Shown: positions 43,773-61,049 of the stretch, piece by piece
Numbering within the stretch: the first letter of the stretch is position 1
Layout: each line of letters begins with the position of its first letter
DNA from: Paludibacter sp. 47-17
Lineage (GTDB): Bacteria; Bacteroidota; Bacteroidia; Bacteroidales; Paludibacteraceae
Length of the DNA: 64,000 bases
Reading direction: 5' to 3'
Assembly (NCBI GenBank): GCA_001898935.1
Contig: MKVT01000019.1
Span: forward strand, 1-64,000
Made by a program: the position numbers and the translations under genes
The notes under the pieces: model-generated
Database searches by the model: none
What the model was told of the DNA's origin: nothing
Seen by the model: the letters and a program-made list of their open reading frames with translations, nothing else

Positions 43773-44354
43773 ATGTCGGGGTTTCTCACACTTGAACAAC
43801 AGTATATTCACGAACTGAACAGAGGATCGTATCGTGCTTTCGACGCACTGTACACCCTGTATGCGCGAAGGTTGTATGCTTTTGCCCTGAAAATGACAAA
43901 ATCGCCGGCCGATGCCCGCGAGATTGTGCAGGATACTTTTGTACGTTTGTGGCAAAACCGCGAGAATGTGCTACCCGAAGAGTCGTTTCAAGCTTACCTT
44001 TTTACCATCGCCAGGAATGCCATTTTCAACAAAATGCGCAGCCTGATCAATTCACCCGTATTTGTCGATTATATCGATTACATGAATGAAGCAGCGGTTT
44101 CGGAAGACACGACTACTTCCACCCTCGAATTCGATGAATTCCGCCGCAAACTCGAAGCGGCCAAAAAATCGCTTTCCGATACACAGCTGAAGGTTTTTGA
44201 GCTCAGCAAGGAATGGGCGCTTTCACATGCCGAAATTGCCGGCCGGCTCAATCTGAGCGAGCAAACCGTAAAAAACCAGCTTTCGATTGCACTGAAAATC
44301 CTCCGAAAAAAGCTGTCCGACAGTGCCGGAATGTTTGCTCTTTTCTTTCTGTAA
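43773..44354 (+). CDS. ECF RNA polymerase sigma factor (Bacteroidota PUL type)
   Basis: 193 residues. Region 2 lies at about 15-85 ('FDALYTLYARRLYAFALKMTKSPADAREIVQDTFVRLWQNR') and region 4 at about 130-185 ('LSDTQLKVFELSKEWALSHAEIAGRLNLSEQTVKNQLSIALKILRKKL'). It is followed after 123 bases by its FecR partner gene. It should activate the SusCD operon at 45510 onward. Confidence 0.92.
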   Translation: MSGFLTLEQQYIHELNRGSYRAFDALYTLYARRLYAFALKMTKSPADAREIVQDTFVRLWQNRENVLPEESFQAYLFTIARNAIFNKMRSLINSPVFVDYIDYMNEAAVSEDTTTSTLEFDEFRRKLEAAKKSLSDTQLKVFELSKEWALSHAEIAGRLNLSEQTVKNQLSIALKILRKKLSDSAGMFALFFL

Positions 44355-44392
44355 CACCCCAACTTATTCCTGAAATTCGCTTTTTCGTTGCT

Positions 44393-44432
44393 TTTAATTT
44401 TAAAAATATGTTTTACAACATATAAAATTAAA
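44393..44432. promoter_or_regulatory. AT-rich imperfect inverted repeat between sigma and fecR-like genes
   Basis: TTTAATTTTA...TATGTT pairs with AACATATAAAATTAAA, with a few unpaired A residues in the left arm. It may be a weak terminator or operator before the FecR gene. No other signal is clear in the 123-base gap. Confidence 0.4.
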
Positions 44433-44477
44433 GGTACGTTTCCAATGTCTCAGTGTATAACTAAATAGAAGTATAGT

Positions 44478-45485
44478 ATGAAAACTAAAAAAATGACCGA
44501 TTTAGTAACAAAATATTACGAGAACCAGCTTTCGGCGGATGAACTTTCGGCGCTGAAGGAAAGTATTAATGCGGCATCGGACGAAGAGCTCGAAAAAACC
44601 CTGAGTGCACTGTGGCAACAGGAAACAGGGAACTTTGCCGACGAAGACACAATTCTCGGAATCAAGCAGGACATCGACCGGTTGAACGCGCGGCAAAAAT
44701 GGCAGCGCAGGAAGCTGATGCGTATCTTATCCAGAGCTGCGGCCATCATTGCCGTACCCCTGATTGCTGCGTTCACCATCAACCTGCTCGACCGGCTTCC
44801 CGCACCTGCGGCCAGCGATATGATAGTGGCGGTTGGTCCGGGCGAAAAAGTGAATATTGTATTACCCGACGGTACCCGGGTAAAATTAAACTCCGAAACC
44901 ACCCTGAACTACAGCATCAACGATTTCAACCGCAAATCGCGCGAGATCGATCTCAGGGGAGAAGCCTATTTCGAAGTGGCCCGCAACGAACGGAAGCCAT
45001 TTATAATCAAAACCAACTCGCTCGATGTGAAGGTATTAGGCACGGTCTTCAACCTGCAGGCGCGGGAGGACGAGCTCACCACCGAAATCGATTTGCTGGA
45101 AGGCGAAGTGGCACTGACTTCTACCACCACCCACCAGCAGGTACGATTGTATGCCAGCCAGCGGGCGGTGCTCGACAAAAGCACCGGTTCCATACGGATT
45201 ATTAAAAATGCTCCGCCAGTGGGCGCTGCCTGGGTAAAAGGGGAACTGGTATTCCACGCAACCCCGGTACGCAATGTATTTAAGGCCATCGAACGCAATT
45301 ACGGAGTAAGCATTCATTTGGATAAGGAAGATACTATTGACAACGACCTGTTTACCGGCCGATTCTCGACAGGCAATCTGAATGAAACGCTCGATATACT
45401 GAAAATGCACTATCGTTTCAATTATCAGATTAAAGGGAATGAAGTGGCCATCAGTAATTTCCGGCTGAATCAACGTAAAAATTAA
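44478..45485 (+). CDS. FecR-family anti-sigma factor
   Basis: 335 residues: cytoplasmic part 1-80, membrane segment at about 84-108 ('AAAIIAVPLIAAFTINLL'), periplasmic FecR domain ('EKVNIVLPDGTRVKLNSETTLNYS', 'REIDLRGEAYFEVARNERKPFIIKT') and a DUF4974-like end ('ELVFHATPVRNVFKAIERNYGV'). It pairs with the sigma factor upstream and the STN-containing SusC encoded 24 bases downstream. Unlike the first locus, no terminator separates FecR from SusC, so they can be one transcript. Confidence 0.92.
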   Translation: MKTKKMTDLVTKYYENQLSADELSALKESINAASDEELEKTLSALWQQETGNFADEDTILGIKQDIDRLNARQKWQRRKLMRILSRAAAIIAVPLIAAFTINLLDRLPAPAASDMIVAVGPGEKVNIVLPDGTRVKLNSETTLNYSINDFNRKSREIDLRGEAYFEVARNERKPFIIKTNSLDVKVLGTVFNLQAREDELTTEIDLLEGEVALTSTTTHQQVRLYASQRAVLDKSTGSIRIIKNAPPVGAAWVKGELVFHATPVRNVFKAIERNYGVSIHLDKEDTIDNDLFTGRFSTGNLNETLDILKMHYRFNYQIKGNEVAISNFRLNQRKN

Positions 45486-45509
45486 TACTTCATAAAACAC
45501 GAATCGAAT

Positions 45510-48500
45510 ATGAGTTACAAAGGAAACGGACTGTTGTTGATTATTTGTTTGCTGTTCCTGATCGTACAGGGCAGCAGGGCGCAGACCAGAACCATCAGCG
45601 TGGATGTTAAAAACGCCAGTCTGGAGCAAGTATTGAGCCTGATCGAAAAGCAATCGGACTATAAAATATCGTACCGCAACAGCATTCTGGACCGGAGCCC
45701 GGATATCACCCTGAAACGCGAAAATGTGGCGGTGGAAGAACTGTTACAGACGATACTCACACCCAAGGGATTAAAATACAATATCGCAGCCGGCAATTCC
45801 ATCGTGATTACCCGCGACGACGCTTCGCTCCGCCAATCGGCACCTGTCGGCCGGCGCATCACCGGACTCGTTACCGATGACAAAGGAGTACCTGCCATAG
45901 GAGCCAATATTTCGGTCAAAGGATCTACTACCGGAACAGTAACCGATATCGACGGTAAATTTGAACTGGAAGCTCCTTCTAATGCTTCGCTTGTGGTGAG
46001 CTACATCGGTTATTATACCGAAACCCTCGAAATCCGCGATCGCTCTCACATAGCCGTTCGGCTCCGTGAAGATACACGTCTGCTCGATGAGGTAGTAGTG
46101 GTGGGTTATGGTACACAGAAAAAAGTAAACCTCACCGGCTCGGTGGCCATGATTACTGCCGATGAACTTAATTCGAGGCCGGTATCGAGTGTAAGCAGCG
46201 GTCTGCAGGGACTCCTGTCGGGTGTTACGGTGGTGAATGCAACCGGCCAGCCCGGAGCCAACAGCACCAGTATCCGGATTCGCGGGTTGGGAACCATCGG
46301 TAATGCCAATCCGCTGATTCTGGTCGATGGTGTCGAAGGTGATATGAATAACCTGAACCCCGAAGACATTCAGAGCGTATCGGTACTGAAGGACGCTGCC
46401 TCTGCTTCGATCTATGGCGCCCGTGCGGCTAACGGCGTCATTCTGGTTACCACTAAAAAACTGAACACCAAGGATCAGGCCCCCACCATTTCGTTGAATG
46501 CTTATTATGGTTCGCAAACGCCTACCCGGTTGCCACGTATGGCCGACGCCCTCGAATTTATGACGCTCGACAACGAAGCGCGTACCAATGTAGGAACGGG
46601 TATTGCCTGGATGGATTACCACTTCAATCACGTACAGAACGGAACAGCTCCGAACTATTTCGGCAATACCGACTGGATCTCGGCGGTACTGAGCAGCAAC
46701 GCCCCGCAGCAAAACTACGCGGTAAACGTAAATGGGAACCTGGGACGGTCGGGTTATTTAATGTCGTACCGTTATTTCGATCAGGCCGGACTTACAGTAG
46801 GAAATTCAACCGGCGAAGAGCGCCATAACCTTCGTTTCAAAGTCGACTCGCGCCTGCTCGACAAAGTCGAAATCAGTTCCAACATCGGCTATACGATGCG
46901 TAATGTAGTATCGCCCGTGGGTTCGCTTACCAGTGGTGGCGGCGCCATTTATACGGCCATGCGTATTGCTCCCAACGTCCCGGTTTATTACACCGATGGC
47001 TCGTGGGCCTACGGAGGTGGCAATACCAATCCGGTGGCTATCCTGTACGACGGAGGCACCACAACCCTCGATGCCGACGAGATGTCGTTGATGAGTACGG
47101 CAAAGATCGAGTTACTAAAAGGCTGGGATCTGTCGGCCACCTACAGCATGGTGAACCGCAATTCCCTGGCGGAGGTATTACGCAAATCGATTCCTTTTGT
47201 GAATCCCGAAACGCCCGAAAGTCCCGTCTACATCTTTAACAATCCCAACAGTCTGAATCTCACCGACGTGCGTCAACGGCAGCAAACCCTGATCGTACAA
47301 TCCAATTTCGATCTGAATTTCGGGAAACACACCCTTTCAGGAGTAGGCGGCTTCTCGCAGGAGTGGTCGGTGTTCCGTAGTTTTGAAGCTTCGCGGATCA
47401 ACCTCATTACCGAGCTGAATCCGACCCTTAACCTGGGATCGAAGGAAGGTATGAGTAATACCGGAAGCGCTTCTCAATGGGCCATCCGTTCAGGCTTTGG
47501 CCGGTTGAATTACAATTACGACGAACGATACCTGGTCGAGTTTAACCTGCGTTACGATCTGTCGTCGCGCTTTCATCGTTCCAACCGGGGAGGACTTTTT
47601 CCCTCTTTTTCGGGAGCATGGCGGATTACCGAAGAAGAATTCATGAAGTTCTCGAGGGATATCTTTGATAATATAAAAGTGCGTATGTCGTGGGGGATGC
47701 TGGGTAACCAATACGTGGGTTCTACCGACTATCCTTATTTATCGGTACTCAACGAAATCACCGGTTTGCCCGCTATCGGCACACTGGGTACTACGGGATA
47801 TACACAAACTACCCTTGCCAACCCTCTCCTCACCTGGGAGAAAATCGACATGCTCGACGTAGGCATCGACTTCACCTTGCTCAAAAACCGCCTGAACATC
47901 ACTTTTGACGTGTACAACAAAAACACGAACGGAATACTGTTGCAGCTCAACTATCCCAGCCAGATCGGCGCCCGCCCGTCGGAGCAAAACGTAGGTTCGG
48001 TGAATAACCGCGGTTGGGAAACCGACATCAGCTGGCGCGATAAGATCGGAAAACTGCGTTACGGCGTGTCGTTCAATCTCTCGGATGTAAAGAATAAAAT
48101 TACCGATCTGGGAGAGACTTCACCCGATTTAAGCTCGTACCAGATCCGGCAGGTAGGATTCCCTATCGATGCTTTCTACGGTTATATTGCTGAAGGGCTG
48201 ATGACACCCGACGATTTTAAGGTATATGATGCGGATGAAAATAAATATTACAGTCCGAAAGTGCCCGTAGTAATGGGCCCCGATTACCAGCCCGGAGATA
48301 TCAAATACCGCGACATCAGCGGTCCGAACAACGAGCCCGACGGACGCATTTCGCCCGAATACGACCGGGTAGTGCTGGGGAGTGCTATTCCACGTTACAC
48401 CTACAGTCTGAAAGCCGATCTGGCCTACAACGACATTGACTTCTCGTTTGCGTTGCAGGGAGTGGGACAAGCCAATGGTTACCTGACCGGCTCGGCGCGT

Positions 48501-48875
48501 CATGCTTTTCAGGATATGGCGGCTTATCCTCAAAAGATTCACCTGGAACGCTATAGTGCCGCAAATCCCGATCCGGATGCAAGCTATCCCCGGTTGACCT
48601 ACAATACCGATTTCAATCAGTCGACCTTTTCGACCTACTGGATGGAAGATGCTTCTTATCTGCGGTTGAAAAATGTGCAGATCGGTTACACCTTACCGGC
48701 GGAATGGACCCGGAAAGCCCGGATCGAAAAGTGCCGCTTTTACGCGTCGGGCGACAACCTGCTTACCCTGAGCAATTTCTTCTACGCCTACGATCCCGAA
48801 ACGCCTATTTCGCGGGGCGGATATTATCCACAGATAAAAACCTTCGTGGTAGGAGTAAACCTTACATTTCAATAA
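45510..48875 (+). CDS. SusC/RagA-type TonB-dependent transporter with STN signalling domain
   Basis: 1121 residues with a signal peptide ending near SRAQ. The STN domain is at about 30-95 ('ISVDVKNASLEQVLSLIEKQ', 'YKISYRNSIL'), the regulatory domain at about 116-192 ('ITGLVTDDKGVPAIGANISVKG'), the plug begins 'DEVVVVGYG' near 193, and the barrel ends in 'FVVGVNLTFQ'. It is the outer-membrane channel and the sensor for the FecR/sigma pair. The cargo is not known; the locus has EEP enzymes rather than glycoside hydrolases. Confidence 0.95.
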   Translation: MSYKGNGLLLIICLLFLIVQGSRAQTRTISVDVKNASLEQVLSLIEKQSDYKISYRNSILDRSPDITLKRENVAVEELLQTILTPKGLKYNIAAGNSIVITRDDASLRQSAPVGRRITGLVTDDKGVPAIGANISVKGSTTGTVTDIDGKFELEAPSNASLVVSYIGYYTETLEIRDRSHIAVRLREDTRLLDEVVVVGYGTQKKVNLTGSVAMITADELNSRPVSSVSSGLQGLLSGVTVVNATGQPGANSTSIRIRGLGTIGNANPLILVDGVEGDMNNLNPEDIQSVSVLKDAASASIYGARAANGVILVTTKKLNTKDQAPTISLNAYYGSQTPTRLPRMADALEFMTLDNEARTNVGTGIAWMDYHFNHVQNGTAPNYFGNTDWISAVLSSNAPQQNYAVNVNGNLGRSGYLMSYRYFDQAGLTVGNSTGEERHNLRFKVDSRLLDKVEISSNIGYTMRNVVSPVGSLTSGGGAIYTAMRIAPNVPVYYTDGSWAYGGGNTNPVAILYDGGTTTLDADEMSLMSTAKIELLKGWDLSATYSMVNRNSLAEVLRKSIPFVNPETPESPVYIFNNPNSLNLTDVRQRQQTLIVQSNFDLNFGKHTLSGVGGFSQEWSVFRSFEASRINLITELNPTLNLGSKEGMSNTGSASQWAIRSGFGRLNYNYDERYLVEFNLRYDLSSRFHRSNRGGLFPSFSGAWRITEEEFMKFSRDIFDNIKVRMSWGMLGNQYVGSTDYPYLSVLNEITGLPAIGTLGTTGYTQTTLANPLLTWEKIDMLDVGIDFTLLKNRLNITFDVYNKNTNGILLQLNYPSQIGARPSEQNVGSVNNRGWETDISWRDKIGKLRYGVSFNLSDVKNKITDLGETSPDLSSYQIRQVGFPIDAFYGYIAEGLMTPDDFKVYDADENKYYSPKVPVVMGPDYQPGDIKYRDISGPNNEPDGRISPEYDRVVLGSAIPRYTYSLKADLAYNDIDFSFALQGVGQANGYLTGSARHAFQDMAAYPQKIHLERYSAANPDPDASYPRLTYNTDFNQSTFSTYWMEDASYLRLKNVQIGYTLPAEWTRKARIEKCRFYASGDNLLTLSNFFYAYDPETPISRGGYYPQIKTFVVGVNLTFQ

Positions 48876-48893
48876 TCAGACAAACAAATTGGT

Positions 48894-50579
48894 ATGAGAA
48901 AATACATCTTTCTATTCGTGACACTGCTTGCTCTTAGTTCATGCAACGACGATTTTCTGGAGCGACCTCCGCTGGATACCCTTACCAACGATAATTTCTG
49001 GCAAAACGAAGCGCACCTGCGCAGTGCCGCCAACTCGCTCTACTCGGCCCTTAGTGGTAAAGATTTGCTCAATATGTTCGAATCGATGGGCGAAACGGCT
49101 CCGTGGGCCATCACTACTGCCTACCGTACCATCGGAGGCGGAAATTATTCCACCGACATTGCTCAGGTCAACAACATCTGGGTCAGGGCCTATTACAACA
49201 TCGGCCGGTGCAATTATTTTCTGAACAATTACCGGCGCGCCTCAACTGTAACCGAAGCTGTACGTGAACGTTATGCCGCCGAAGCCTTGTTTTTCAGGGC
49301 CTACGATTACTGGCTGCTCACCACGCTTTTTGGTGATGTTCCCTATATCACCGGCGAACTCAATGTGTATTCGCCCGATGTGTTCCGGGGCCGCGATGCA
49401 AAAGCAGCCATCATCGACAGCATTGCTGCCGACCTGGAGCGAAGCTACAAAAACCTACCGGCCTTTATTCAGCCGGCTTCTGCCGAATTCGGACGCATCT
49501 CGCAGGGAGCAGCGCTTACCCTTCTTTCGAGGATTTACCTGTACAACGAACGCTGGAATGAAGCTGCCGGTGCGGCACGCAGAGCCATGAACCTGGGATA
49601 CAGCTTGTATACTACGGGCAATAAGGCCAACGATTACCGCAACCTGTTCAATTTTACCGGACGAGCGTCGCGGGTGGGCTCCAACCGTGAAACGATTCTG
49701 GCTTATGTGTATAATTTCGATCTGGGAGAAGATGCCCGTACTTCGCACAACCTGTCGCGGGAGCTCTGGGTGCCGAACGACTATTCGCGCTTTACTCCTA
49801 CCAAACGGATGATCGAAACCTGGCTGACGGCCGATGGTAAGGTGTGGAATCCGGCATCGGTATCGACCTACGAGGAGGTATTCGAAAACCGCGATCCCCG
49901 TATGAAACAGTCGGTGTTGCCTCCCAATACTGCCTGGGAAGGCCGGAAGGATGGAAATCCCAATAATACAAATTCTGCCGTTTTCACCTATCCGAAGTTT
50001 TCCAACGATAAAGACGGATGTATGACCTATTCGGGTTATTATCTGTACAAATACGTGGAGCCTTCGAAGGTAGGACAAGTGAGTCAGGATGATAACGATA
50101 TTATTTACTTCCGCTATGCCGAGGTATTGCTCAACTATGCCGAAGCGCGCGAAAGAGCAGGAGCTCTTACGCAGGCTACACTCGACAGTACCATTAATCT
50201 GCTGCGCGACCGGGTGGGGATGGTACCGATGCAACTGTCGGCACTACCGGCCGGATCGGATATCCGGAAGGAAATCCGCCGCGAACGTACGGTGGAACTC
50301 TTTTTCGAAGGGCACCGCTACCCCGATCTGATTCGCTGGCGAGAAGCTGAAGTATTGGGCGAAGATTTGCTCGGCGTTAATCGCCGCTGGCTCGATCCGG
50401 CAAAATTGCCTGCAGGCATACTGAATACCCTTAAATGGAAAAATGTGGGCGGCGACCAGTACCTGATCATTGAGTCAGGACGTACGTTCAATCCGGCCAA
50501 GCATTACCTGTTGTCGTTGCCTTTTACCCAAATGCAGCGCAATCCCAACCTCCGGCCCAATAATCCGGGCTGGGATTGA
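48894..50579 (+). CDS. SusD/RagB-type outer-membrane binding lipoprotein
   Basis: 561 residues with a lipobox (LSSC, Cys17). Family landmarks: 'CNDDFLERPPLDTLTNDNFW', 'ERYAAEALFFRAYDYWLLTTLFGDVPYIT', 'IIYFRYAEVLLNYAEARERAG', 'IRRERTVELFFEGHRYPDLIRW'. It starts 18 bases after susC and should cap that transporter. Confidence 0.94.
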   Translation: MRKYIFLFVTLLALSSCNDDFLERPPLDTLTNDNFWQNEAHLRSAANSLYSALSGKDLLNMFESMGETAPWAITTAYRTIGGGNYSTDIAQVNNIWVRAYYNIGRCNYFLNNYRRASTVTEAVRERYAAEALFFRAYDYWLLTTLFGDVPYITGELNVYSPDVFRGRDAKAAIIDSIAADLERSYKNLPAFIQPASAEFGRISQGAALTLLSRIYLYNERWNEAAGAARRAMNLGYSLYTTGNKANDYRNLFNFTGRASRVGSNRETILAYVYNFDLGEDARTSHNLSRELWVPNDYSRFTPTKRMIETWLTADGKVWNPASVSTYEEVFENRDPRMKQSVLPPNTAWEGRKDGNPNNTNSAVFTYPKFSNDKDGCMTYSGYYLYKYVEPSKVGQVSQDDNDIIYFRYAEVLLNYAEARERAGALTQATLDSTINLLRDRVGMVPMQLSALPAGSDIRKEIRRERTVELFFEGHRYPDLIRWREAEVLGEDLLGVNRRWLDPAKLPAGILNTLKWKNVGGDQYLIIESGRTFNPAKHYLLSLPFTQMQRNPNLRPNNPGWD

Positions 50580-50648
50580 TAAAAAACAACGCTTCCCTAT
50601 GATGACACGGAAATTGCTCCCGAACAGAACAAATCAATTTATATCGTA

Positions 50649-51437
50649 ATGAAATTACCACGTTCTAAAATAATCTGTAAATTCAGTCTTTTACTGGTAT
50701 TAATACTGGCAACACACCCGGGTATGGCTCAACAGCTTTCACTCCGGATTATGTCGATGAACATCAAAGAGGGAGGTAAACCTGCCGGTTTCGATGCATT
50801 GGCTTATGCCGGCTGTATCCGTGAGTACAATCCCGACGTGGTGGTATTTCAGGAAATGGACAATTTCACCACCCGCAACGGGAAAAAGGATTTACTCACC
50901 GAACTGGCTGCCGAACTGGGAATGTTCCCTTATTTCGGGAAAGCATTCACCTATGCCACCGGCGACTTTGGCAATGCTATTTTATCCAAATACCCTTTTT
51001 ACAATGCCCGGACCATCTCCTCGCGTCCGGCCGGAGCCAACGAAATGCGGGCTTGTTCGTGGATCGACATTCTGCTTCCCGGAAAACGTAAGGTAAGGGT
51101 GGGAGTTACCCATCTGGATGTAGCCAGCGATGAGCAGGTGCGCATCAGCATGCTGGCCACCATCAATACGCAGATGCTGACCGACAATAGCCTCCCGACC
51201 CTGCTGGCCGGCGATTTTAATGCGACGCCCGACTCCGAAACATTGAATTATGCCCGCTTCCGCTGGCAGGACATTGGTGACGGTACCGGCAATACCATTT
51301 CGAGTACCAATCCAACCAAACGTATCGATTATGTGATGGGCTATCCCAAAAGCTGGGTACGGAAAAGCTACCAGGTGGTGTGCTTCCCTCATTTGTCCGA
51401 TCATTGTTTTATCGTAGCCGATGTCGAACACCCGTAA
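50649..51437 (+). CDS. Secreted endonuclease/exonuclease/phosphatase (EEP) family enzyme, copy 1
   Basis: 262 residues with a signal peptide (hydrophobic 12-22, ending near MAQQ). All EEP active-site motifs are present in order: 'MSMNIKEG' (Asn), 'VVFQEMD' (Glu), 'VTHLD' (His), 'AGDFNATP' (Asp/Asn), 'RIDYVMG' (Asp) and 'LSDHCFI' (Asp-His). The family hydrolyses phosphodiesters or phosphomonoesters in DNA, sphingomyelin or inositol phosphates, with a divalent metal. It is 69 bases after susD and 12 bases before the next gene. It is likely periplasmic or surface-located; the substrate is unknown. Confidence 0.85.
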   Translation: MKLPRSKIICKFSLLLVLILATHPGMAQQLSLRIMSMNIKEGGKPAGFDALAYAGCIREYNPDVVVFQEMDNFTTRNGKKDLLTELAAELGMFPYFGKAFTYATGDFGNAILSKYPFYNARTISSRPAGANEMRACSWIDILLPGKRKVRVGVTHLDVASDEQVRISMLATINTQMLTDNSLPTLLAGDFNATPDSETLNYARFRWQDIGDGTGNTISSTNPTKRIDYVMGYPKSWVRKSYQVVCFPHLSDHCFIVADVEHP

Positions 51438-51449
51438 AATGTATAGCAG

Positions 51450-53011: not shown

Positions 53012-53048
53012 TCCGACAATACAATTACTAATACAAAATTCATAGTTT

Positions 53049-54311
53049 ATGAAAAAGCTCAATTTCTTATTTCTGATCCTTTTATCGGTATCGTTTGTGT
53101 TTATTTCCTGCGATAAAGACGATGTGAAGGAAGCCAACGTGCAGTTTACCCTTGAAAAAACAGCACTCGATGCTGTTACATTTGCCGAACCGGTTATCGT
53201 TAAAGGAACCATTACAGCCGACAAGGCGATTACCGGCATTTATCTTACGGGAGTTAAAAAGGAAGAAAATGTGTATGTAGCCAAGGGAGATCCACAGGAG
53301 TACAAAGCCAACGGACAGACAACCGTAAAGCTCGATATGGAATATTTTGTCGACAGTAAGGAAATTACGCATATCGAAATAAAAGTTGCGGTGGGCGATG
53401 CTTCCAAAAACGCATACATCAGCGTAGCGTCGGTAACCGGCGAAGCAAAAGGTTCGGCGTTTCTCGGACAGGTAATCCTGCGTGCCGACACCATGGTATG
53501 GAATGCCGAAAACCGTCCCGACGTGTATACCACTCCCAACACCGGTGCCGAAGCGAAAACAGCTTCTTTCTTTTCTATTCACGGAGTAACGATCAATGGC
53601 GTTAAAAAACACGTTCTTACCGGCGACGAGCTGCGCTCGGTTCAGGGATTGAACGCTAGTTTTGCCTTTGTGAATGTATTGCAGAATACGGCTAATAAAG
53701 CCTACATCGGCAGCCAGCGCGGTTATATGTTTACGAATATGTGGCCATCGCAGTTGGGTGGCGGCACCACAGGCCGTCAGTGCGACCTCTATGAAATTGG
53801 AGGAAAAGCGATTCGCCTTGCCAATGTCGATACCACCTCATTCCGTATCGTAACCGGTTCGTGGATTGGCAACGACTGGAACGAAGCCCGGTATAAATTC
53901 GTGGATTCTCTTTTCCTGGTGATTGCCGACGAAGCCACTTCGGAGGCTGCAAAGTTGAAAGCTTACCATCAGTTGGGTAAGATACAGACTACCCTCGACA
54001 ATGCCACACTGGGCGAACAAAACAATCCGACCAACCTGGGAACTCTAAATTTTGCCCGTCGCAGGGCCAATGCCGGCACTTCGGGTACTACTGCTATGGT
54101 GGAACAGTTCCGCGCCGGCGACTATATCGTATTGAAAAATATTAAAGGCGGTAAGCTGTACTACGGAATTATGCAGATTGTGCAAATGTACGACGATACC
54201 CAGGCTTTTGTGAATGTAGAAGGCGTAGGTCAGAAAATCGGTCAGGAAGAAGCCAAACAACTCTTCCACAAACCTCTGATCCTGAATGTAAAAGTACAAA
54301 CACAACTCTGA
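53049..54311 (+). CDS. Lipoprotein of unknown family, possible surface binding protein
   Basis: 420 residues with a lipobox (FISC, Cys21) followed by DKDD, typical of surface-exported lipoproteins. Residues 30-140 look like an Ig-type beta-sandwich ('QFTLEKTALDAVTFAEPVIVKGTITAD'). The rest is of a kind I do not recognise ('MFTNMWPSQLGGGTTGRQCDLYE', 'FRAGDYIVLKNIKGGKLYYGIMQIVQ'). Position and build fit a surface substrate-binding protein of the locus. Confidence 0.65.
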   Translation: MKKLNFLFLILLSVSFVFISCDKDDVKEANVQFTLEKTALDAVTFAEPVIVKGTITADKAITGIYLTGVKKEENVYVAKGDPQEYKANGQTTVKLDMEYFVDSKEITHIEIKVAVGDASKNAYISVASVTGEAKGSAFLGQVILRADTMVWNAENRPDVYTTPNTGAEAKTASFFSIHGVTINGVKKHVLTGDELRSVQGLNASFAFVNVLQNTANKAYIGSQRGYMFTNMWPSQLGGGTTGRQCDLYEIGGKAIRLANVDTTSFRIVTGSWIGNDWNEARYKFVDSLFLVIADEATSEAAKLKAYHQLGKIQTTLDNATLGEQNNPTNLGTLNFARRRANAGTSGTTAMVEQFRAGDYIVLKNIKGGKLYYGIMQIVQMYDDTQAFVNVEGVGQKIGQEEAKQLFHKPLILNVKVQTQL

Positions 54312-54342
54312 TCGTTCAACCGGGATAAAAAATCGCATCACC

Positions 54343-55665
54343 ATGAGTATCCTCTCCATTTCAGTTTTGGTTATTCTCAGCATCGTGCTCATTATCGTGC
54401 TTACATCCATAGTCAGGCTCAATGCTTTTCTATCGCTGTTTGTCACGGCCCTGCTGCTGGCGGTAGCCACCCTACCCGATCGTTCGGTAGTGGAGATACT
54501 TCAACAAGGCTTTGGCTCTACTCTGTCGTCGATAGGCTTCCTCATCATTTTCGGAGCTATCATTGCCGTGGTGCTCGACCAAACGGGGGGTGCCGTGAGT
54601 ATTGCGACATCTATCCTGAGAAAAACAGGCGCTCACAAGGCAGCTCCGGCCATCGGAATCACAGGTTTCGTAACCGGACTGCCCATTTTTTGCGATTCGG
54701 GTTACATTATTCTGAGCGGACTCAGCGGTTCGTTCAGTGCAAAAGGGAAAGTGGCCCTGCCCCTGATTGCATTTGTGCTGGCAACGTCCCTCTATTCGGT
54801 TCATTGCCTGGTGCCAACGCATCCGGGGGCGCTTGCCGCTTCGGGTATCATGAATGCTAACTTGGGATACCTCATACTGCTCGGTACCTTATTTGCCATC
54901 CCGGCTACTCTCACGGCTTACTGGTGGATCAGGTGGAGAACCGGCAGGCAATTGATGCAGGAACCTATGGTACCCGCCACACCCGATGAACGGGAGCTTC
55001 CGCCGGTATGCCTGGCCTTGCTGCCTGTGCTGACTCCCATTCTGCTGATTGCCGTCCGCTCCTTGCTCACGATCTTCGATGCCGGGGATGCGAACATGAT
55101 TACCCGGGTACTGTCATTTATCGGGCAACCGGTGATGGCCCTGTTCACGGGAGTCGTGCTGAGCTTCCCGCTCCTGGGCAAGCCCTCTGTCGACAAGCTG
55201 AATCAGCTGCTCGAAAGCGCCCTTCAGAAGGCAGGCCCTATCCTCATCGTGACCGCTGCCGGTGGCATGTTGGGAATGGTAATCAAGGAAACGGGCGTAG
55301 GAGCTTATGCCGGATCGCTGCTGCTTCATACAGGCATCGGGCTGGCCGTGCCTTTTCTGATTGCTTTTCTGATGAAAACAGCCCAGGGTTCGTCCACTGT
55401 TGCCATTATTACTGCCGCGTCGCTGGTGGTGCCGATGTTACCGTCGCTGGGACTCGATTCGGAAAACGGGAAACTCCTCGCGATGCTGGCAATGGGCGGT
55501 GGCTCGATGATGGTTTCGCATGCCAACGATTCCTACTTCTGGGTGGTATCCCGCTTTTCGGGAGTAAATGTCGACACCACGCTCCGGATTTATTCATCGG
55601 CAACGGTGGTAATGGGTGTGACGGTGTTTTTGCTGGTGTGGATAAGTTCATTTCTGATGTTGTAA
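54343..55665 (+). CDS. GntP-family permease (gluconate/glycerate-type)
   Basis: 440 residues, nearly all hydrophobic, with about 12 membrane segments. 'GFGSTLSSIGFLIIFGAIIAVVLDQTGGA', 'GFVTGLPIFCDSGYIILSGLSGSFS', 'LVPTHPGALAASGIMNANLG' and 'GSMMVSHANDSYFWVVSRFSGV' are the classical GntP-family segments. The family carries gluconate, D-serine or other small hydroxy acids with protons. The next gene, 3 bases on, is a glycerate 2-kinase, so glycerate (or a close hydroxy acid) is the likely cargo. Confidence 0.88.
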   Translation: MSILSISVLVILSIVLIIVLTSIVRLNAFLSLFVTALLLAVATLPDRSVVEILQQGFGSTLSSIGFLIIFGAIIAVVLDQTGGAVSIATSILRKTGAHKAAPAIGITGFVTGLPIFCDSGYIILSGLSGSFSAKGKVALPLIAFVLATSLYSVHCLVPTHPGALAASGIMNANLGYLILLGTLFAIPATLTAYWWIRWRTGRQLMQEPMVPATPDERELPPVCLALLPVLTPILLIAVRSLLTIFDAGDANMITRVLSFIGQPVMALFTGVVLSFPLLGKPSVDKLNQLLESALQKAGPILIVTAAGGMLGMVIKETGVGAYAGSLLLHTGIGLAVPFLIAFLMKTAQGSSTVAIITAASLVVPMLPSLGLDSENGKLLAMLAMGGGSMMVSHANDSYFWVVSRFSGVNVDTTLRIYSSATVVMGVTVFLLVWISSFLML

Positions 55666-55668
55666 ACG

Positions 55669-56994
55669 ATGCGAACAACAGCGGAACATATTTTCCGGGC
55701 AGGCGTGAAGGCGGTAATGCCCGATCAGCTCATCCGATCACAGGTTTTTCTTTCGGAAGGAATACTTACGATTTGCGGCGAAGCCTATACGCTCTGTAAC
55801 TTCCGCAATATCTATCTGTTGGGCGCAGGAAAAGCTTCGGCGCTGATGGCCCGGGAGATTGAAAATGTGCTGGGAGATGGCATCACGGGTGGAGTTATCG
55901 TTACCAAATATGGTCATGGATGCAGCCTGAAGCATGTCGAATGTATCGAAGCCGCCCACCCGGTGCCCGATGCCAACAGCTTTGCCGCAGCTGAGTCGAT
56001 GCTGGCTGTTGCCGAGCGGGCAACAGAAAACGATCTGGTAATCTGCCTGTTGTCGGGAGGCGCTTCTTCGCTGATGGCTGATTTGCCCGGCGACCTTACG
56101 CCCGATGCATTACAGCAGACCAATGCCTTGCTGGTAAACTCCGGTGCATCGATAGCCGAGATTAATACGGTACGCAAACACCTTTCGAAGCTGAAGGGTG
56201 GTCGGCTGGCACAAACCGTATTTCCCGCATACTGTGTTGGTCTGATACTTTCGGATGTGGTGGGCGACAGTATGGAAGTGATTGCTTCGGGCCCCACAAC
56301 CCCCGACACCACGAGCTTTGCAGATGCTTTTACCGTATTGCAACGCTATCGGCTGACGGATATGCTGCCGGAAGCAGTCGTCAGCAGGATCAAAAAAGGG
56401 ATGGCCGGAGAAATCGGTGAAACACCCGATGTCCATCACCCCTGTTTTGCCCGGGTGAAGAACTATAGTATCGGCAACAACCGAAAGGCGCTCGAAGCCT
56501 CGGCCCGGGCAGCTGCAGACCTGGGTTTTGCCCCGGCCATTGTCACCGACAGCCTGCAGGGTGATTACCAAGCCGTAGCCCGCTTTCTGCTCGGACAAAT
56601 CGCCCCTACTGCTTCAATGGAAAGGCCTGCCTGCCTGTTGTTTGGAGGAGAACCCACCGTAAAGGTCACCGGGCAGGGACTGGGAGGACGCAATCAGCAC
56701 CTGGCGCTGTACCTGGCTACTTTGTTACACGAAGGCCGCGAACATGCGCCGCAAAACATTACGATACTGTGCGCCGGAACCGATGGCACCGACGGACCAA
56801 CCGATGCAGCAGGCGCCGTGGTCGATGCCTACAGTCTGCAGGAAGCCCTGAAACGCGACGATGCTCCGCAGAACTACCTCGACAATGCCGATAGTTACCG
56901 TTTTTTTGAAACCTACGGAGGCCATATCCTTACCGGGAATACGCAAACCAATGTCATGGATATCATCATTATACTTTACAATTACCCACTTTAA
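55669..56994 (+). CDS. Glycerate 2-kinase (GckA/TtuD, MOFRL family)
   Basis: 441 residues, the usual length. N-terminal DUF4147-type domain with 'GAGKASALMAREIE', 'CIEAAHPVPD', 'CLLSGGASSLMADLP', 'NTVRKHLSKLKGGRLA', 'LILSDVVGDSMEVIASGPTTPD'; C-terminal MOFRL domain with 'LLFGGEPTVKVTGQGLGGRNQHLALYLA' and 'LCAGTDGTDGPTDAAGAVVD'. It phosphorylates glycerate to 2-phosphoglycerate, which enters lower glycolysis. The gene is coupled to the permease gene 3 bases upstream. Cytoplasmic. Some relatives were first named hydroxypyruvate reductase. Confidence 0.9.
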   Translation: MRTTAEHIFRAGVKAVMPDQLIRSQVFLSEGILTICGEAYTLCNFRNIYLLGAGKASALMAREIENVLGDGITGGVIVTKYGHGCSLKHVECIEAAHPVPDANSFAAAESMLAVAERATENDLVICLLSGGASSLMADLPGDLTPDALQQTNALLVNSGASIAEINTVRKHLSKLKGGRLAQTVFPAYCVGLILSDVVGDSMEVIASGPTTPDTTSFADAFTVLQRYRLTDMLPEAVVSRIKKGMAGEIGETPDVHHPCFARVKNYSIGNNRKALEASARAAADLGFAPAIVTDSLQGDYQAVARFLLGQIAPTASMERPACLLFGGEPTVKVTGQGLGGRNQHLALYLATLLHEGREHAPQNITILCAGTDGTDGPTDAAGAVVDAYSLQEALKRDDAPQNYLDNADSYRFFETYGGHILTGNTQTNVMDIIIILYNYPL

Positions 56995-57006
56995 AAACAA
57001 CTGATC

Positions 57007-58482
57007 ATGAGAACAAAAACGTTACTTTTTAGTTTATTCGTTGCAATGGGACTGCAGATACAGGCAGCTACCCTTACCGTTACCAACAACAATGCCTCCG
57101 GAGCGGGCTCCTTTGCACAAGCCTTTACCGATGCGGTGGACGGCGATATTATTGTGTTCAATTTTGACGGAACCGAACTGTCGCTCTCTGATGCCATCCC
57201 GATGAAAAGCATTACCATCGATGGTTTCAATACCTTTAACGGATATAAAATGGTGCTGAAACAGACGACTGCCTCCAAAAGTTTCTTTACGCTCACTTCA
57301 GGCATCACCGCTACTTTCAAGGACATCGTATTCGACGGTACCGGGATATTGGGCAACACCGCTCTTACCGCTGCCAACGGTTCGACCCTGAATATCGACG
57401 GATGTATCTTTAAAAACATCAACGCACAGGCCAATAACGGTGGCGCAGCACGTATTCAGGGAGTAGCTACCATTACGAGTTCGTTGTTTGAAAACAATAT
57501 TACCGGCGGTGGTTACGGCGGCGGAGCGCTTTGTATCTACAACGCGGCTACCGTTACAATCGACCAGTGCAGCTTTGTGGGAAACACTTCAAATGCCAGC
57601 GGTAACAGCGGAGGAGGTGCCATCGTGGCAAGAGGAACGGTAGCTACTGCCTGCAATGTAACCATTACCAATTCTACTTTTGCCAACAATTATTCCGGCA
57701 AAACAGGGGGAGCCATCCTATCCTCGGTTCAGAGTTCTACGGCGTATACCGCCAACGTTACTGCCGTTAACTGTACCTTTACCGGCAACCAGGGCGACGG
57801 GGCTATCAGTGCGTTGACCACTGCCAACGGTTTTGCAAATGTATTTCTGGTAAATGCGCTGGTGGTTAACAATATAAATGTTGCCGGCGATGCCTATTCC
57901 GATCTGCTCGAAACAGCTGGTTCCAACCCGGCTACGGTTGTAAAGATCGATCCTTACCATGTCATGTACACCACTGCATCGGCCACCGTGGTTACCAACG
58001 GCCGTAATTGCATTCAGGTGGCCGACCCTGCCACTGCTGAGATTTTCAAATCGCTCGAAACTTTTGCAACAAACTACAAACGTCCGGTGCTTTCCGAAAT
58101 CAGCGGCAATAAAATAGCCGAACTCATTACCGGTAGTCTGGCTCTCAATGCCGGTGTTGCAACACTTGCCGGCTACACCATTCCTTCGGTCGACCAGCTG
58201 GGAGCTACCCGTCCGGCAACTCCCTCCATAGGTGCCGTTGAATATGTTACCGGAACAACAGTTGTTTCGGAACACGAAGACGATAAGCTTACAGTACGGA
58301 TTGAGGGTCGTACAGTGGCCTTTACCGGTATCGAGGGAAATCAGGAACTGCTGGTGTATTCGATGGGAGGGCAACTGACCGGCCGGTATACCATCGGCAA
58401 CGAAGAACCGGTTCAGCTTACACAGCCGGGGCTTGTGCTGATGAAGATTCAGAACAACACGTACAAGGTTGTCGTACGATAA
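57007..58482 (+). CDS. Secreted beta-helix protein with C-terminal sorting-like domain
   Basis: 491 residues with a signal peptide (1-20, ending near IQA). Residues about 25-330 are a right-handed beta-helix of the polymorphic/CSLREA-like kind ('SIDGCIFKNI'-type turns, 'GGGALCIYNAATVTIDQCSF', 'NSTFANNYSGKTGGAIL', 'NCTFTGNQGDGAI'). The last 65 residues ('VRIEGRTVAFTGIEGNQELLVYSMGGQLTGRY', 'VLMKIQNNTYKVVVR') look like a T9SS type A domain. No catalytic site is visible. It may bind the substrate or the cell surface. It starts 12 bases after the kinase gene. Confidence 0.75.
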   Translation: MRTKTLLFSLFVAMGLQIQAATLTVTNNNASGAGSFAQAFTDAVDGDIIVFNFDGTELSLSDAIPMKSITIDGFNTFNGYKMVLKQTTASKSFFTLTSGITATFKDIVFDGTGILGNTALTAANGSTLNIDGCIFKNINAQANNGGAARIQGVATITSSLFENNITGGGYGGGALCIYNAATVTIDQCSFVGNTSNASGNSGGGAIVARGTVATACNVTITNSTFANNYSGKTGGAILSSVQSSTAYTANVTAVNCTFTGNQGDGAISALTTANGFANVFLVNALVVNNINVAGDAYSDLLETAGSNPATVVKIDPYHVMYTTASATVVTNGRNCIQVADPATAEIFKSLETFATNYKRPVLSEISGNKIAELITGSLALNAGVATLAGYTIPSVDQLGATRPATPSIGAVEYVTGTTVVSEHEDDKLTVRIEGRTVAFTGIEGNQELLVYSMGGQLTGRYTIGNEEPVQLTQPGLVLMKIQNNTYKVVVR

Positions 58483-58495
58483 CTCTTGTATTCAA

Positions 58496-58553
58496 CACAC
58501 GAAACATGCAGAATCGCTGTTCACCAACAGAAGGATGAGGCATGTTTCGTGTG
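58496..58553. terminator. Long nested hairpin after the beta-helix gene
   Basis: CACACGAAACATGC (58496-58509) and GCATGTTTCGTGTG (58540-58553) are perfect 14-bp complements. Inside the 30-base loop CTGTT (58517-58521) pairs with AACAG (58526-58530). There is no T-run after it, so it may be a transcript-stabilising or regulatory structure rather than a plain terminator. Confidence 0.6.
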
Positions 58554-58617
58554 CCTACAAACGGATTGTGGTCTTTCGGGGCACAAACGACATGATATAA
58601 CTAAATGATAATTTACA

Positions 58618-60033
58618 ATGAACAGACTTGATTTTTTAAAGCGGATGGCCTGGGCGCTGGGCGGAGCAACCGTGCTGGGAGCCGACACGACCCTTTTGCA
58701 TGCCGCTCCGAGTGATAAGAATATTATGCCCCGGCAGGGAGAAGCATTCGATGAGTTTAAGGCCGATATTCAGGGATTGGATGCGCGGGTGGATAAACCG
58801 GTTACGGTTATCATTATTGGCGCCGGGGGACGTGGAAATGCCTATGCCACGTATGCAAAGCGGTTTCCATCGGCAATGCGTATTGTAGGCGTCTCCGACA
58901 TCAACGAAAGCCGGCGGAAGAAAATGGCCGATGCCTTCTCCGTTAAAAAAGAAAATCAGTTCGGCGATTTTTCCGAAGTGTTTAAACGGCCCAGGCTCGC
59001 CGATGCGGTTGTCATCAGCACCCCCGACGACGTACATTATGCACCCTGTATGCTGGCGCTCGAAAAAGGTTACCAGGTATTGCTCGAAAAGCCGATAGCT
59101 CCTACCGAAAAAGAATGTACCGACATCCTGGCTGCCGCCAAAAAACACGACCGCATCGTGGCAGTATGCCATGTGTTGCGGTATGCTCCCTATTTTATAG
59201 CGCTCAAACAGGCAGTCGACTCGGGAGTGATTGGCGATGTGGTTTCGGTGCAACACCTCGAACCCATCCTGTTCGACCATATGGCGCACTCCTATGTGCG
59301 GGGCAACTGGCACAATTCGAAAGAAACCACCCCGATTATTCTGGCGAAATCCTGTCACGACCTGGACATTATCCGCTGGCTGGTGGGTAAACCCTGTACA
59401 CAGATTTCGGCCGACGGAAGCCTGAGCTACTTCAAGGCATCACGCATGCCGGCCGGTGCTCCTGCCTTCTGTACCGATGGTTGTCCGCACGAGTCGACCT
59501 GCCCGTATTCGGCCATCGACATCTATGTGCGCCGCAAACGTATGCTCAAAGTGTTCGATTTACCGGAAGAAAAAGATGAATTGATCCTCGAAAAACTGCG
59601 TACCACCAACTATGGCCGGTGTGTGTTCCGTTGCAACAACGATCAGCCCGATCATTACGTAAGTACGATGGTGTTCGAAGGCGATGTTACCGCCTCGTTC
59701 AACATGGAAGCATTTACGTCCTATTCGGGCCGGCGTACCCGCATCATGGGTACACAGGGCGATATTGTGGGCGACATGACCGAATTTGTGATTACCGACT
59801 TCCGTACGAAGAAAAAAACGGTATGGAACCAAAAGGTAGAAGAACTGGAAGCCTATAAGGATGCCGGCCACGGTGGTGGTGATCTCGGTTTGGTTCGCGA
59901 TTTCGTGAAGGCTGTAGCGGCCGGAAATGCCTCCTTGCTTTCGAGCAGTATCGATGCCTCGGTCGAAAGCCATGTGATGGGATTCCGGGCCGAAGAAAGC
60001 CGTCGGTCGATGAAAAAAATAGCAATCCACTAA
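58618..60033 (+). CDS. Gfo/Idh/MocA-family oxidoreductase with degenerate Tat-like leader
   Basis: 471 residues. Rossmann motif 'VIIIGAGGRGNAYA' at about 62-75, 'VGVSDI', 'VISTPDDVHY', 'LLEKPIAPTEKE' (conserved lysine) and 'KSCHDLDIIRWL' (conserved histidine) place it firmly in the NAD(P)-dependent sugar/inositol dehydrogenase family. The N-terminus (NRLDFLKRMAWALGGATVLGADTTLLHA) looks like the RRxFLK twin-arginine leader of many Bacteroidota members, but the second arginine is Leu. Four cysteines in 'CTDGCPHESTC' and nearby may bind metal. It probably oxidises a sugar or polyol from the locus. Export is uncertain. The next gene starts 5 bases after its stop. Confidence 0.85.
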   Translation: MNRLDFLKRMAWALGGATVLGADTTLLHAAPSDKNIMPRQGEAFDEFKADIQGLDARVDKPVTVIIIGAGGRGNAYATYAKRFPSAMRIVGVSDINESRRKKMADAFSVKKENQFGDFSEVFKRPRLADAVVISTPDDVHYAPCMLALEKGYQVLLEKPIAPTEKECTDILAAAKKHDRIVAVCHVLRYAPYFIALKQAVDSGVIGDVVSVQHLEPILFDHMAHSYVRGNWHNSKETTPIILAKSCHDLDIIRWLVGKPCTQISADGSLSYFKASRMPAGAPAFCTDGCPHESTCPYSAIDIYVRRKRMLKVFDLPEEKDELILEKLRTTNYGRCVFRCNNDQPDHYVSTMVFEGDVTASFNMEAFTSYSGRRTRIMGTQGDIVGDMTEFVITDFRTKKKTVWNQKVEELEAYKDAGHGGGDLGLVRDFVKAVAAGNASLLSSSIDASVESHVMGFRAEESRRSMKKIAIH

Positions 60034-60038
60034 ATGCA

Positions 60039-61049
60039 ATGAAAATAAATCGGTTCTGGATTGCTCTGGTTTTGTTCCCGGTGTTGGCGAATGCCGGGAA
60101 CATTACCTTTATGACGTATAACCTGCTCACGAATAGCGGATTGAACTTTCAATCGCTGCGCATTGCCCGCCACGCACAGCTTATTGCAGCTACCGGAGCC
60201 GATGTGGTGGCTGTGCAGGAAGTAGTGGGAGCGGCCAATTTCAACACCCTGAAAAACAATTCTGGACTATCGGGGTCGTGGTTCGACATAGCAGGAAACG
60301 GATACGGCATTGGTGTGCTCTGGAATCCGGCCTTAGGAAACCCCACCCTAACCAATGTGAAGGTAAACCCCACACCCGGTTCCACCGACAAGGAAAGCCG
60401 CGCCTACATCATTGCCGAATTTCCCCATTTTTACTTTATCTCCACCCATTACAGCCTCAATGCCGTCGATCGCGACACCATGACGGCCCGCATGATCCGT
60501 TTTGCCAACCAGGCCGGAAAAACGGTGTTCGTAGCCGGCGATTTTAATGCTCAGCCCACCTACCGGGCAATGGTCACCTTTAAGAACAACCATTTTGCGA
60601 TTCTGAACGATCTTGCTGAATACACCTATCCCAGCTCAGCACCCGCTTCGGTTATCGACATGATACTCGGTTACCGGAAAAACAGTACCGATGCCCCATA
60701 TACCGTTGTTTCACGGGGCATTCCCGTACCTCCCGCCGGCCTGGTGCTGAAAGATATTTCCGATCACCTGCCCTACCTGGTCAAAGTAAATCTTCAGGCA
60801 GAAGCCCCCAACGCTACTCCTGCACCTCCCACCGCATCCATCCGCCTTGGTATGCTCGGCCGCAAGCTGAGCATCAGTTCACCCGGCAATCCCCTGCACA
60901 TCGAGGTATATACCCTCAACGGTTCATGCATAACCCGGCTTAGCACCCACAGCAATGCCGACATCGACTTAGCTCCCGGCTCGGGGAGTTTATTGATTGT
61001 ATCGGTCAATGGGGAAAGGTATAAGGTGGGGAGAAGCAGCGAAGAGTGA
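60039..61049 (+). CDS. EEP-family enzyme, copy 3, with C-terminal sorting domain
   Basis: 336 residues with a signal peptide (1-18). EEP motifs: 'FMTYNLLTNS', 'AVQEVVG', 'STHYSLN', 'AGDFNAQP', 'VIDMILGY' and 'ISDHLPYLV'. Residues about 270-336 are an added T9SS-like tail ('LHIEVYTLNGSCITRLS', 'GSLLIVSVNGERYKV'), which the other two copies lack. This copy should be sent to the cell surface or medium, so it may make the first cut in the polymer. Co-transcribed with the oxidoreductase gene 5 bases upstream; last gene of the locus. Confidence 0.83.
   Translation: MKINRFWIALVLFPVLANAGNITFMTYNLLTNSGLNFQSLRIARHAQLIAATGADVVAVQEVVGAANFNTLKNNSGLSGSWFDIAGNGYGIGVLWNPALGNPTLTNVKVNPTPGSTDKESRAYIIAEFPHFYFISTHYSLNAVDRDTMTARMIRFANQAGKTVFVAGDFNAQPTYRAMVTFKNNHFAILNDLAEYTYPSSAPASVIDMILGYRKNSTDAPYTVVSRGIPVPPAGLVLKDISDHLPYLVKVNLQAEAPNATPAPPTASIRLGMLGRKLSISSPGNPLHIEVYTLNGSCITRLSTHSNADIDLAPGSGSLLIVSVNGERYKVGRSSEE

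Follow-up and report, generated by a model that had tools for sequence, protein, structure and literature searches.

A Paludibacter SusCD locus with EEP-family enzymes and glycerate genes: a candidate uptake system for a glyceric-acid-containing glycan

What kind of polymer is taken up by a SusCD locus whose hydrolases belong to the EEP family, and which also carries genes for the uptake and phosphorylation of glycerate? The question arises from positions 43773-61049 of a 64,000-nt stretch (the window) of the 4.18-Mb genome of Paludibacter sp. 47-17, where 13 genes lie on the same strand with intergenic gaps of -1 to 135 bp. A preliminary description of this DNA listed a complete ECF/FecR/SusC-STN/SusD module, three EEP enzymes with intact motifs (EEP1, EEP2 and EEP3), two lipoproteins (here LipA and LipB), a GntP permease, a glycerate 2-kinase, a beta-helix protein and a Gfo/Idh/MocA oxidoreductase. 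The gene list and its coordinates held, all open reading frames (ORFs) lying in one orientation, and Pfam matches were obtained for every member of the module, the three EEPs, the permease, the kinase and the oxidoreductase. The description had also seen no glycoside hydrolase (GH), polysaccharide lyase or carbohydrate esterase. For the window this stands: no GH, polysaccharide lyase or carbohydrate esterase was recognised among the 13 locus proteins with Pfam or among the 10 scanned with NCBIfam, and profile searches of LipA, LipB and the beta-helix protein found no polysaccharidase. For the locus family it does not, since relatives carry GH89 genes in the same operon. The proposed phosphodiester-containing or glycerate-releasing polymer is supported by the conservation of the EEPs, the glycerate kinase and the permease. 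The substrate of the locus family is probably a glycan with a phosphodiester, alpha-linked N-acetylglucosamine (alpha-GlcNAc) and glycerate, and the locus could well be a SusCD polysaccharide-utilisation system for the glyceric-acid lipoteichoic acid (LTA) of Clostridioides difficile and serologically related clostridia, or for a close chemical cousin.

GH89 genes in two versions of the locus

Full-length LipB was found in nine genomes: the window's own, G105, G028, G148, G194, G973 and G976 (Paludibacteraceae), and G563 and G983 (family f9). Contigs L015, L016 and L017 are identical to contigs of G194, G976 and G973, and each was counted once. The close relatives include three metagenome-assembled genomes (MAGs) of Paludibacter sp. 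As far as the contigs reach, the order SusC-SusD-EEP1-LipA-EEP2-LipB is kept in all nine. LipB is followed by two GH89 genes (GH89a and GH89b) in G105, G028 and G563 and by GH89a alone in G983 (GH89 in 4/9), and directly by the permease in the window (31 bp), G194, G973, G976 and G148. Because GH89 follows LipB in four genomes, the lack of a GH characterises one Paludibacter group and does not extend to the whole locus family, and the reading shifts from a locus free of GHs to one that lost, or never had, its GH89 genes. The GH89 proteins of the relatives carry the NAGLU_N, NAGLU and NAGLU_C domains, and in G105 the cluster ends with glucosamine-6-phosphate deaminase genes.

With the window's own genome counted, 6 of the 200 family genomes searched have LipA and 6 of the 48 genus genomes have LipB, which marks this as a rare accessory locus. 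LipB matched 3 of 393 genomes of the order (the own genome and one 36-residue match included) and 2 of 199 genomes of f9; across 395 genomes of the class it gave, besides its own, only short N-terminal matches. A SusCD-EEP1-LipA-EEP2 locus was found in G550. In that genome an ECF gene (57% identical to the window's) and a SusC fragment lie 3' of EEP2 in the same orientation (L079, G550:C2, 1-2349), which suggests another locus copy at the contig end.

An EEP2 profile matched 24 of the 393 order genomes at 1e-40, and 20 neighbourhoods were read besides those of the window and G563 (G343 and G532 were left out). In 15 of the 20 an EEP was present with no GH89, glycerate kinase or GntP-type permease; among these, SusC/SusD-like genes lie near the EEP in G464, and an HGSNAT-like gene is present in G468, 2 kb from an EEP2-type gene on the opposite strand and without SusCD or GH89 (L083, G468:C71, 6667-10389). 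A second, rearranged version of the locus was found in G551, G488 and G307 (family f109) and in G257 (f59), with the order ECF-FecR-SusC-SusD-EEP-EEP2-EEP3-beta-helix-GH89a-glycerate kinase-GntP-type permease-HGSNAT-like-second GH89. All four genomes have SusCD, an EEP of the version's own, an EEP2-type EEP, GH89a, a PF02595 kinase, a GntP-family permease and a second GH89. EEP3 and the beta-helix gene are present in three of the four, as is the HGSNAT-like gene (G551, G488, G307); none of these three genes was seen within the 19.5 kb read in G257. There, the EEP2-type domain and GH89a form a single open frame of 952 aa (L085, 7415-10273). A GH127-like gene is additionally present in G488 and G307 (the Pfam scan covered the G488 copy); it lies between the EEPs in G488 (L081, 7107-9116), a similar ORF is found in G307, and none was seen in G551.

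GH89a links the two versions, the second-version proteins being 60-62% identical to GH89a of G105. When 324 genomes of the order were searched for GH89, the GH89a proteins of G488, G307 and G257 scored 1275-1476 bits, the next protein scored 836, and all three lie beside EEPs. Two GH89 genes are present at the locus in G105, G028, G563, G551, G488, G307 and G257, and one in G983. These eight GH89a loci were compared with 20 control GH89 loci, one from each of 20 of the 25 other genomes with a GH89 match (G456, G318, G486, G398, G482 and second loci were left out; control loci L136, L137, L143, L147 and L150 span only 3-12 kb), by scoring neighbouring genes in six-frame tblastn with all role queries. 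Kinase and permease were found together in six of the eight GH89a loci, with a remnant in a seventh (G563), and neither kinase and neither permease was detected in any of the 20 controls. EEP genes were detected in 1 of the 20 controls (L153). The GH89a loci had been found via LipA, LipB or EEP2, so the adjacency of EEPs is built into the set; that of the kinase is not. The eight loci come from few lineages: G105 and G028 share a family, G551, G488 and G307 a genus, and G563 and G983 a family, G257 being the last. Control locus L153 (G258:C14, 72-16019) has SusCD, two EEPs (one with a Por_Secre_tail domain), a GH89 of a different clade and two more long ORFs, without glycerate kinase or GntP, and is possibly a different system with EEP and GH89.

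Glycerate genes, EEP enzymes and lipoproteins

The GntP-family permease, a proposed glycerate importer, lies at 54343..55665 on the + strand (GntP_permease 3.9e-85) and scored below the NCBIfam cut-off for gluconate:H+ symporters (245 vs 293 bits). The glycerate 2-kinase (55669..56994, +; DUF4147 2.6e-79, MOFRL 1.5e-36) matched PDB entry 2b8n, 'glycerate kinase, putative', at 1.3e-81. Both genes are present on all Paludibacteraceae contigs that are long enough (window, G973, G105 and G028); in G194, G976 and G148 the contig is shorter and breaks off within the permease gene. The Paludibacteraceae kinase is of the DUF4147/MOFRL family and that of the second version is PF02595 (4.5e-141), both families being described as glycerate kinases, and the two showed no cross-match by tblastn. 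The permeases of both versions are GntP-family by Pfam and gave no mutual tblastn match at 1e-8. Since two kinase families accompany the same enzymes, we argue that glycerate is likely to be a real product of the locus enzymes.

The preliminary description had left it to a synteny survey whether EEP, permease and kinase are conserved with this susCD pair. EEP1 and EEP2 are present in all nine LipB loci and the permease-kinase pair on every Paludibacteraceae contig that extends far enough. In f9 the EEPs are likewise conserved; the pair has decayed in G563 and was not seen in G983. The decayed G563 copy is an open frame 3' of a sulfatase gene that matches positions 47-146 of the 372 of PF02595 (1.3e-26) and continues into a GntP-like piece (50% identity over 155 aa). 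In G483 an EEP gene lies among several ORFs matching that sulfatase (L098, G483:C47, 3329-14116).

EEP1 (50649..51437, +; Exo_endo_phos 1.7e-21), a proposed phosphodiesterase/phosphatase, EEP2 (52226..53011, +; 2.1e-23) and EEP3 (60039..61049, +; 2.8e-15) all conserve the motifs QE, TH, GDFNA and SDH; IDY is found in EEP1 and EEP2, and EEP3 has IDM. We take the conserved motifs QE, TH, GDFNA, SDH and IDY to be catalytic. The whole 4.18-Mb genome has eight Exo_endo_phos matches (seven above the cut-off), three of them in the locus. A tree of 37 EEPs grouped the EEP1 proteins from seven first-version loci (support 99/95) and joined EEP3 of Paludibacteraceae and f109 in a single clade of six (100/99); the second version's first EEP fell in a separate clade (100/100). 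The beta-helix-like protein (57007..58482, +) gave a single match, to choice_anch_Q (1.1e-5, NCBIfam); its relative in G551 matched Beta_helix at 1.2e-9. In G105 (L021, 9641-11845) and G028 (L029, 9440-11623) one ORF joins EEP3 to a copy of this protein. Separate beta-helix copies persist beside these fusions in both genomes (L021, 7982-11845; L029, 9440-13288), and in G105 the two copies appear, by eye, nearly identical over long stretches, suggesting a recent duplication.

LipA (51450..52226, +) gave no Pfam match at E 1, and profile comparison found no sequence similarity to EEP1 or EEP2. In a Foldseek search with its AlphaFold model (predicted local distance difference test, pLDDT, 84.8), the 50 hits shown were all EEP-type: TDP2 came first (E 2.2e-8, template-modelling score (TM) 0.55, root-mean-square deviation (rmsd) 5.9), followed by ANGEL2, SHIP2/INPP5, DNase I and APE1, the top hits having an rmsd of 5-6 Å and a TM of about 0.55. 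The absence of similarity to EEP1 and EEP2 makes the EEP assignment one of predicted fold alone, and on that prediction LipA counts as the fourth protein with an EEP fold in the window locus. None of the catalytic EEP motifs is invariant across eight LipA sequences, nor is any histidine. As the motifs are not conserved in a fold of EEP type, we propose that LipA is a dead EEP used for binding, that is, a glycan-binding pseudoenzyme. LipB (53049..54311, +) belongs to no Pfam family, its Pfam hits being sub-threshold and at chance level, and is 42-95% identical in the eight other genomes. On the nearest relative's contig it is the most conserved protein (95%, vs 79-91% for LipA, EEP2, GntP and EEP1). 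Its AlphaFold model has a mean pLDDT of 45.3 and is confident only for about residues 30-130; we propose it as a surface glycan-binding protein. The lipoprotein status of LipA and LipB, like the secretion of the EEPs, was judged by eye from the N-termini.

The proposed substrate and its alternatives

Alpha-GlcNAc, a phosphodiester and glyceric acid together describe the LTA of C. difficile, and this is why an LTA of that type is proposed. The accessible text of PMC10642750 describes repeats of GlcNAc-alpha-1,3-GlcNAc linked through 6-P-6 phosphodiesters; C1 of one GlcNAc carries glyceric acid, and at the other GlcNAc position about 15% is glucosamine. That of PMC6972965 gives the GlcNAc-glyceric acid bond as alpha-1,2 and reports that repeat units have already been synthesised for vaccine work. 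According to the accessible text of PMC5974105, which cites Cox 2013 for it, sera directed at this LTA react with C. butyricum, C. subterminale and C. bifermentans, whereas C. perfringens, C. sporogenes, C. barati and C. botulinum are not recognised. Since other clostridia are recognised, the LTA or a similar polymer is not confined to C. difficile.

If this were the substrate, SusD, LipA with its dead EEP fold and LipB would bind the polymer at the cell surface, the EEPs would cleave the 6-P-6 phosphodiesters and remove phosphate, and SusC would import the fragments; activities, locations, substrate and the order of steps are predicted here from gene content. In the relatives, the two GH89 enzymes would remove first the alpha-1,3-linked GlcNAc and next the alpha-GlcNAc attached to glyceric acid; in some relatives this would be preceded by re-acetylation of glucosamine by the HGSNAT-like protein, a candidate glucosamine N-acetyltransferase (HGSNAT/NagX). 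GntP would bring glycerate into the cytoplasm, where glycerate kinase would make phosphoglycerate for glycolysis, and GlcNAc would pass to glucosamine-6-phosphate deaminase. In the window copy the alpha-GlcNAc bonds would have to be opened by the Gfo/Idh/MocA enzyme or by genes elsewhere.

NAD-dependent glycosidases with a Gfo/Idh/MocA fold exist. The window's Gfo/Idh/MocA enzyme (58618..60033, +; GFO_IDH_MocA 3e-22) is a candidate NAD-dependent stand-in for GH89. Its best NCBIfam match was UDP-GlcNAc 3-dehydrogenase (3.8e-32; 112 bits vs a cut-off of 450), and a comparison with solved structures, made to look for kinship with GH109-like NAD-dependent glycosidases, gave general Gfo/Idh/MocA matches only, among the best 60 of 71. 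It occurs in no GH89a locus. Close relatives (86-94%) were found in three of the six genomes whose locus lacks GH89: the window's, G973 and G194 (on a separate small contig). G551 has two homologues of 57-61% away from the locus. The enzyme was not found in G148, G976 or G550, which also lack GH89, and so the replacement of GH89 by this enzyme in window-type loci is suggestive only, a lead. The six genomes, the window's own apart, are 75-92% complete; G122 was excluded because its contig is cut before the point concerned.

Several observations weigh against the LTA proposal. The window locus itself lacks GH89, and the only GH89 of the genome lies on another contig and is 29% identical to GH89a and 33% to GH89b. 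Neither kinase nor permease was seen in the 32 kb examined for G983. The G563 operon includes the sulfatase mentioned above, with an SGSH_C domain, an enzyme not needed for an LTA, and no enzyme for D-alanine esters or a glycolipid anchor was noticed at the locus. EEP specificity is not readable from sequence, and the nearest solved structures are distant: an uncharacterised EEP protein (4ruw, 9.8e-6), then TDP2, nocturnin and exonuclease III (E 6e-5 to 1e-3). The EEP2 of the second version is 45-49% identical to that of the window, lone EEP genes in G458, G468 and G464 are equally close (47-48%), and the tree of 37 EEPs left the EEP2 group unresolved; for these reasons the second-version protein is called EEP2-type, not orthologous. 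Identity to GH89b is only 36-37% for the second version's second GH89, while three unrelated SusCD loci among the controls (L144, L145 and L146) contain GH89 proteins that reach 50-54%, so that GH89a alone is special to the locus. An HGSNAT-like gene neighbours GH89 in 2 of the 20 control loci (L137 and L145, with L151 a weak third), and 9 of 10 of these genomes encode HGSNAT_cat proteins. The HGSNAT-like protein is not specific; the window locus has none, such proteins being encoded elsewhere in its genome, and G983 has a DUF5009-like protein below the cut-off. The informative set is GH89a, EEP, kinase and permease. The activities of the locus proteins are predictions, and the production of such an LTA by the clostridial neighbours of Paludibacter is an assumption.

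The gene set requires only alpha-GlcNAc, a phosphodiester and glycerate, and could also serve for another glycan with these parts (or glucosamine), for example a phosphoglycolipid of the Thermus/Deinococcus type, in which a phosphodiester connects glyceric acid bearing alpha-GlcNAc with diacylglycerol, or a surface polymer not yet described; such a reading keeps the mechanism and changes the source organism. Thermus and Deinococcus would be unexpected in guts or anaerobic digesters, and a SusCD system with two different GH89 enzymes suits a polymer containing two alpha-GlcNAc bonds better than a lipid containing a single one. Published chemistry with all three components exists for a Thermus acidic glycolipid whose glyceric acid carries glucosamine at O-3 and a phosphodiester at O-2 (PMC3398001, accessible text). 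We regard another such glycan as an unlikely substrate, though worth keeping in view. Phosphate scavenging, in which the EEPs of a PusCD-like system would free phosphate from diverse phosphodiesters and carbon use would be secondary, is still less probable. It would suit three EEPs in a window without a recognised glycosidase, and Flavobacterium has SusCD clusters with phosphodiesterases that are induced by phosphate depletion (PMC8115612, accessible text). The same text places phosphatases of PhoA and other types in those clusters, along with enzymes for phosphonates and inner-membrane transporters for organophosphates. The 13 locus proteins, however, include no phosphate or organophosphate transporter, no phosphatase of PhoX, PafA or PhoA type and no phosphonate enzyme; an ECF/FecR pair lies 5' of SusC, and the glycerate kinase and permease, the GH89 genes of relatives and the glucosamine-6-phosphate deaminase of G105 point to carbon use.

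GH89, the HGSNAT-like protein and the SGSH_C sulfatase of G563 recall the lysosomal heparan pathway, and the locus might degrade heparan-sulfate-like or mucin-type alpha-linked glucosamine or GlcNAc, the EEPs being unrelated to it. We give this little credence: it leaves EEPs, glycerate kinase and GntP unexplained, an EEP is fused to GH89a, the HGSNAT-like protein counts for little given its occurrence, and no polysaccharide lyase was found above the cut-off among the scanned proteins, a subset of the ORFs (a GH88 match below the threshold came from the GH127-like protein in G488). One of the three Paludibacter sp. MAG relatives is, by its title, from a reactor, and the titles of the other two give no host. 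Degradation of extracellular DNA, phosphoinositides or sphingolipids by DNase- or sphingomyelinase-like EEPs is very improbable. In its favour, the enzymes belong to the EEP superfamily and weakly resemble TDP2, exonuclease III and the nuclease-like domain of PGAP2IP, and a sub-threshold inositol dehydrogenase match of the Gfo/Idh/MocA enzyme (92 vs 355 bits) is mild evidence in the same direction; however, no nucleoside, deoxyribose or ceramide enzyme was found among the scanned proteins, and alpha-N-acetylglucosaminidase and glycerate kinase recur. In the preliminary list of candidates the teichoic-like polymer fits best, and DNA and phosphoinositides are left without support by the alpha-N-acetylglucosaminidases and glycerate kinase that relatives add. 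Plant glycosyl inositol phosphoceramide (GIPC) sphingolipids, glycosylphosphatidylinositol (GPI) anchors and the glucosaminyl-inositol lipids of methanogens, all of which contain alpha-linked glucosamine and inositol phosphate, were rejected as substrates, for they hold no glycerate.

If the substrate is the clostridial glyceric-acid LTA, this would be a Bacteroidota uptake locus for a lipoteichoic acid, offering a direct route to eating Gram-positive neighbours; enzymes would become available for a polymer under study as a vaccine antigen for C. difficile, and glycan phosphodiester cleavage would be added to the EEP superfamily. It would be a polysaccharide-utilisation locus (PUL) with a new predicted substrate class. 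No PUL for lipoteichoic acid was found among the papers listed, as judged by titles and abstract openings in a coverage with few subscription papers. A far bolder version, which we offer as speculation and think doubtful, is that of a dedicated Bacteroidales uptake system for this LTA in which the EEPs have become glycan phosphodiesterases, LipA a dead binder, and in Paludibacter a new kind of NAD-dependent alpha-N-acetylglucosaminidase, the Gfo/Idh/MocA enzyme, has taken the place of GH89.

Regulatory module, surroundings and comparison with known systems

The locus begins with genes for an ECF sigma factor (43773..44354, +; Sigma70_r2 3.3e-17, r4_2 3.6e-9, Pfam) and a FecR anti-sigma factor (44478..45485, +; FecR 1.4e-20, FecR_C 1.2e-15, Pfam). 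These are followed by a SusC-like TonB-dependent transporter with an STN signalling domain (45510..48875, +; Plug 1.3e-20, STN 1.7e-9, CarbopepD_reg_2) and, 18 bp further on, by a SusD-like lipoprotein (48894..50579, +; SusD_RagB 2.5e-45). The SusC is 59-86% identical to those of the LipB-bearing relatives. Promoter and terminator scans (26 vs 19.8 and 27 vs 21.1 in shuffles) were barely above the shuffled sequences and were not used. The gene 3' of the locus encodes a type I DNA methylase. It belongs to a type I restriction-modification cluster of methylase, specificity and restriction subunits (window 61202-63661 and L030, G000:C19:61000-80000), in which PADLOC matches to HEC-01A/HEC-01B and PDC-S65 (SIR2-like) are interspersed, forming a defence island.

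The window locus resembles SusCD-type PULs with ECF/anti-sigma regulation in having an ECF sigma factor, FecR, an STN-type SusC, SusD, lipoproteins and hydrolases on one strand. It differs from them in that its hydrolases are EEP-family enzymes and none is a recognised carbohydrate-active enzyme, GH89 being confined to relatives, and in including a glycerate permease and kinase. With respect to GH89 (NAGLU), the relatives have two and the window locus none; GH89a scores apart from other Bacteroidales GH89 proteins, and GH89b does not. The EEPs share the Exo_endo_phos domain and its motifs with DNase I, TDP2, exonuclease III and INPP5, and the predicted model of LipA matches the fold of that superfamily; they differ in having no close solved relative and a proposed glycan phosphodiester as substrate, and LipA is without the motifs. 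The closest published idea found is the PusCD system of Flavobacterium, in which, according to the accessible text of PMC8115612, SusCD likewise lies beside predicted phosphodiesterases. PusCD is accompanied there by other phosphatases and by phosphonate and organophosphate functions, whereas the window locus joins EEPs to glycerate functions, and its relatives add those for GlcNAc.

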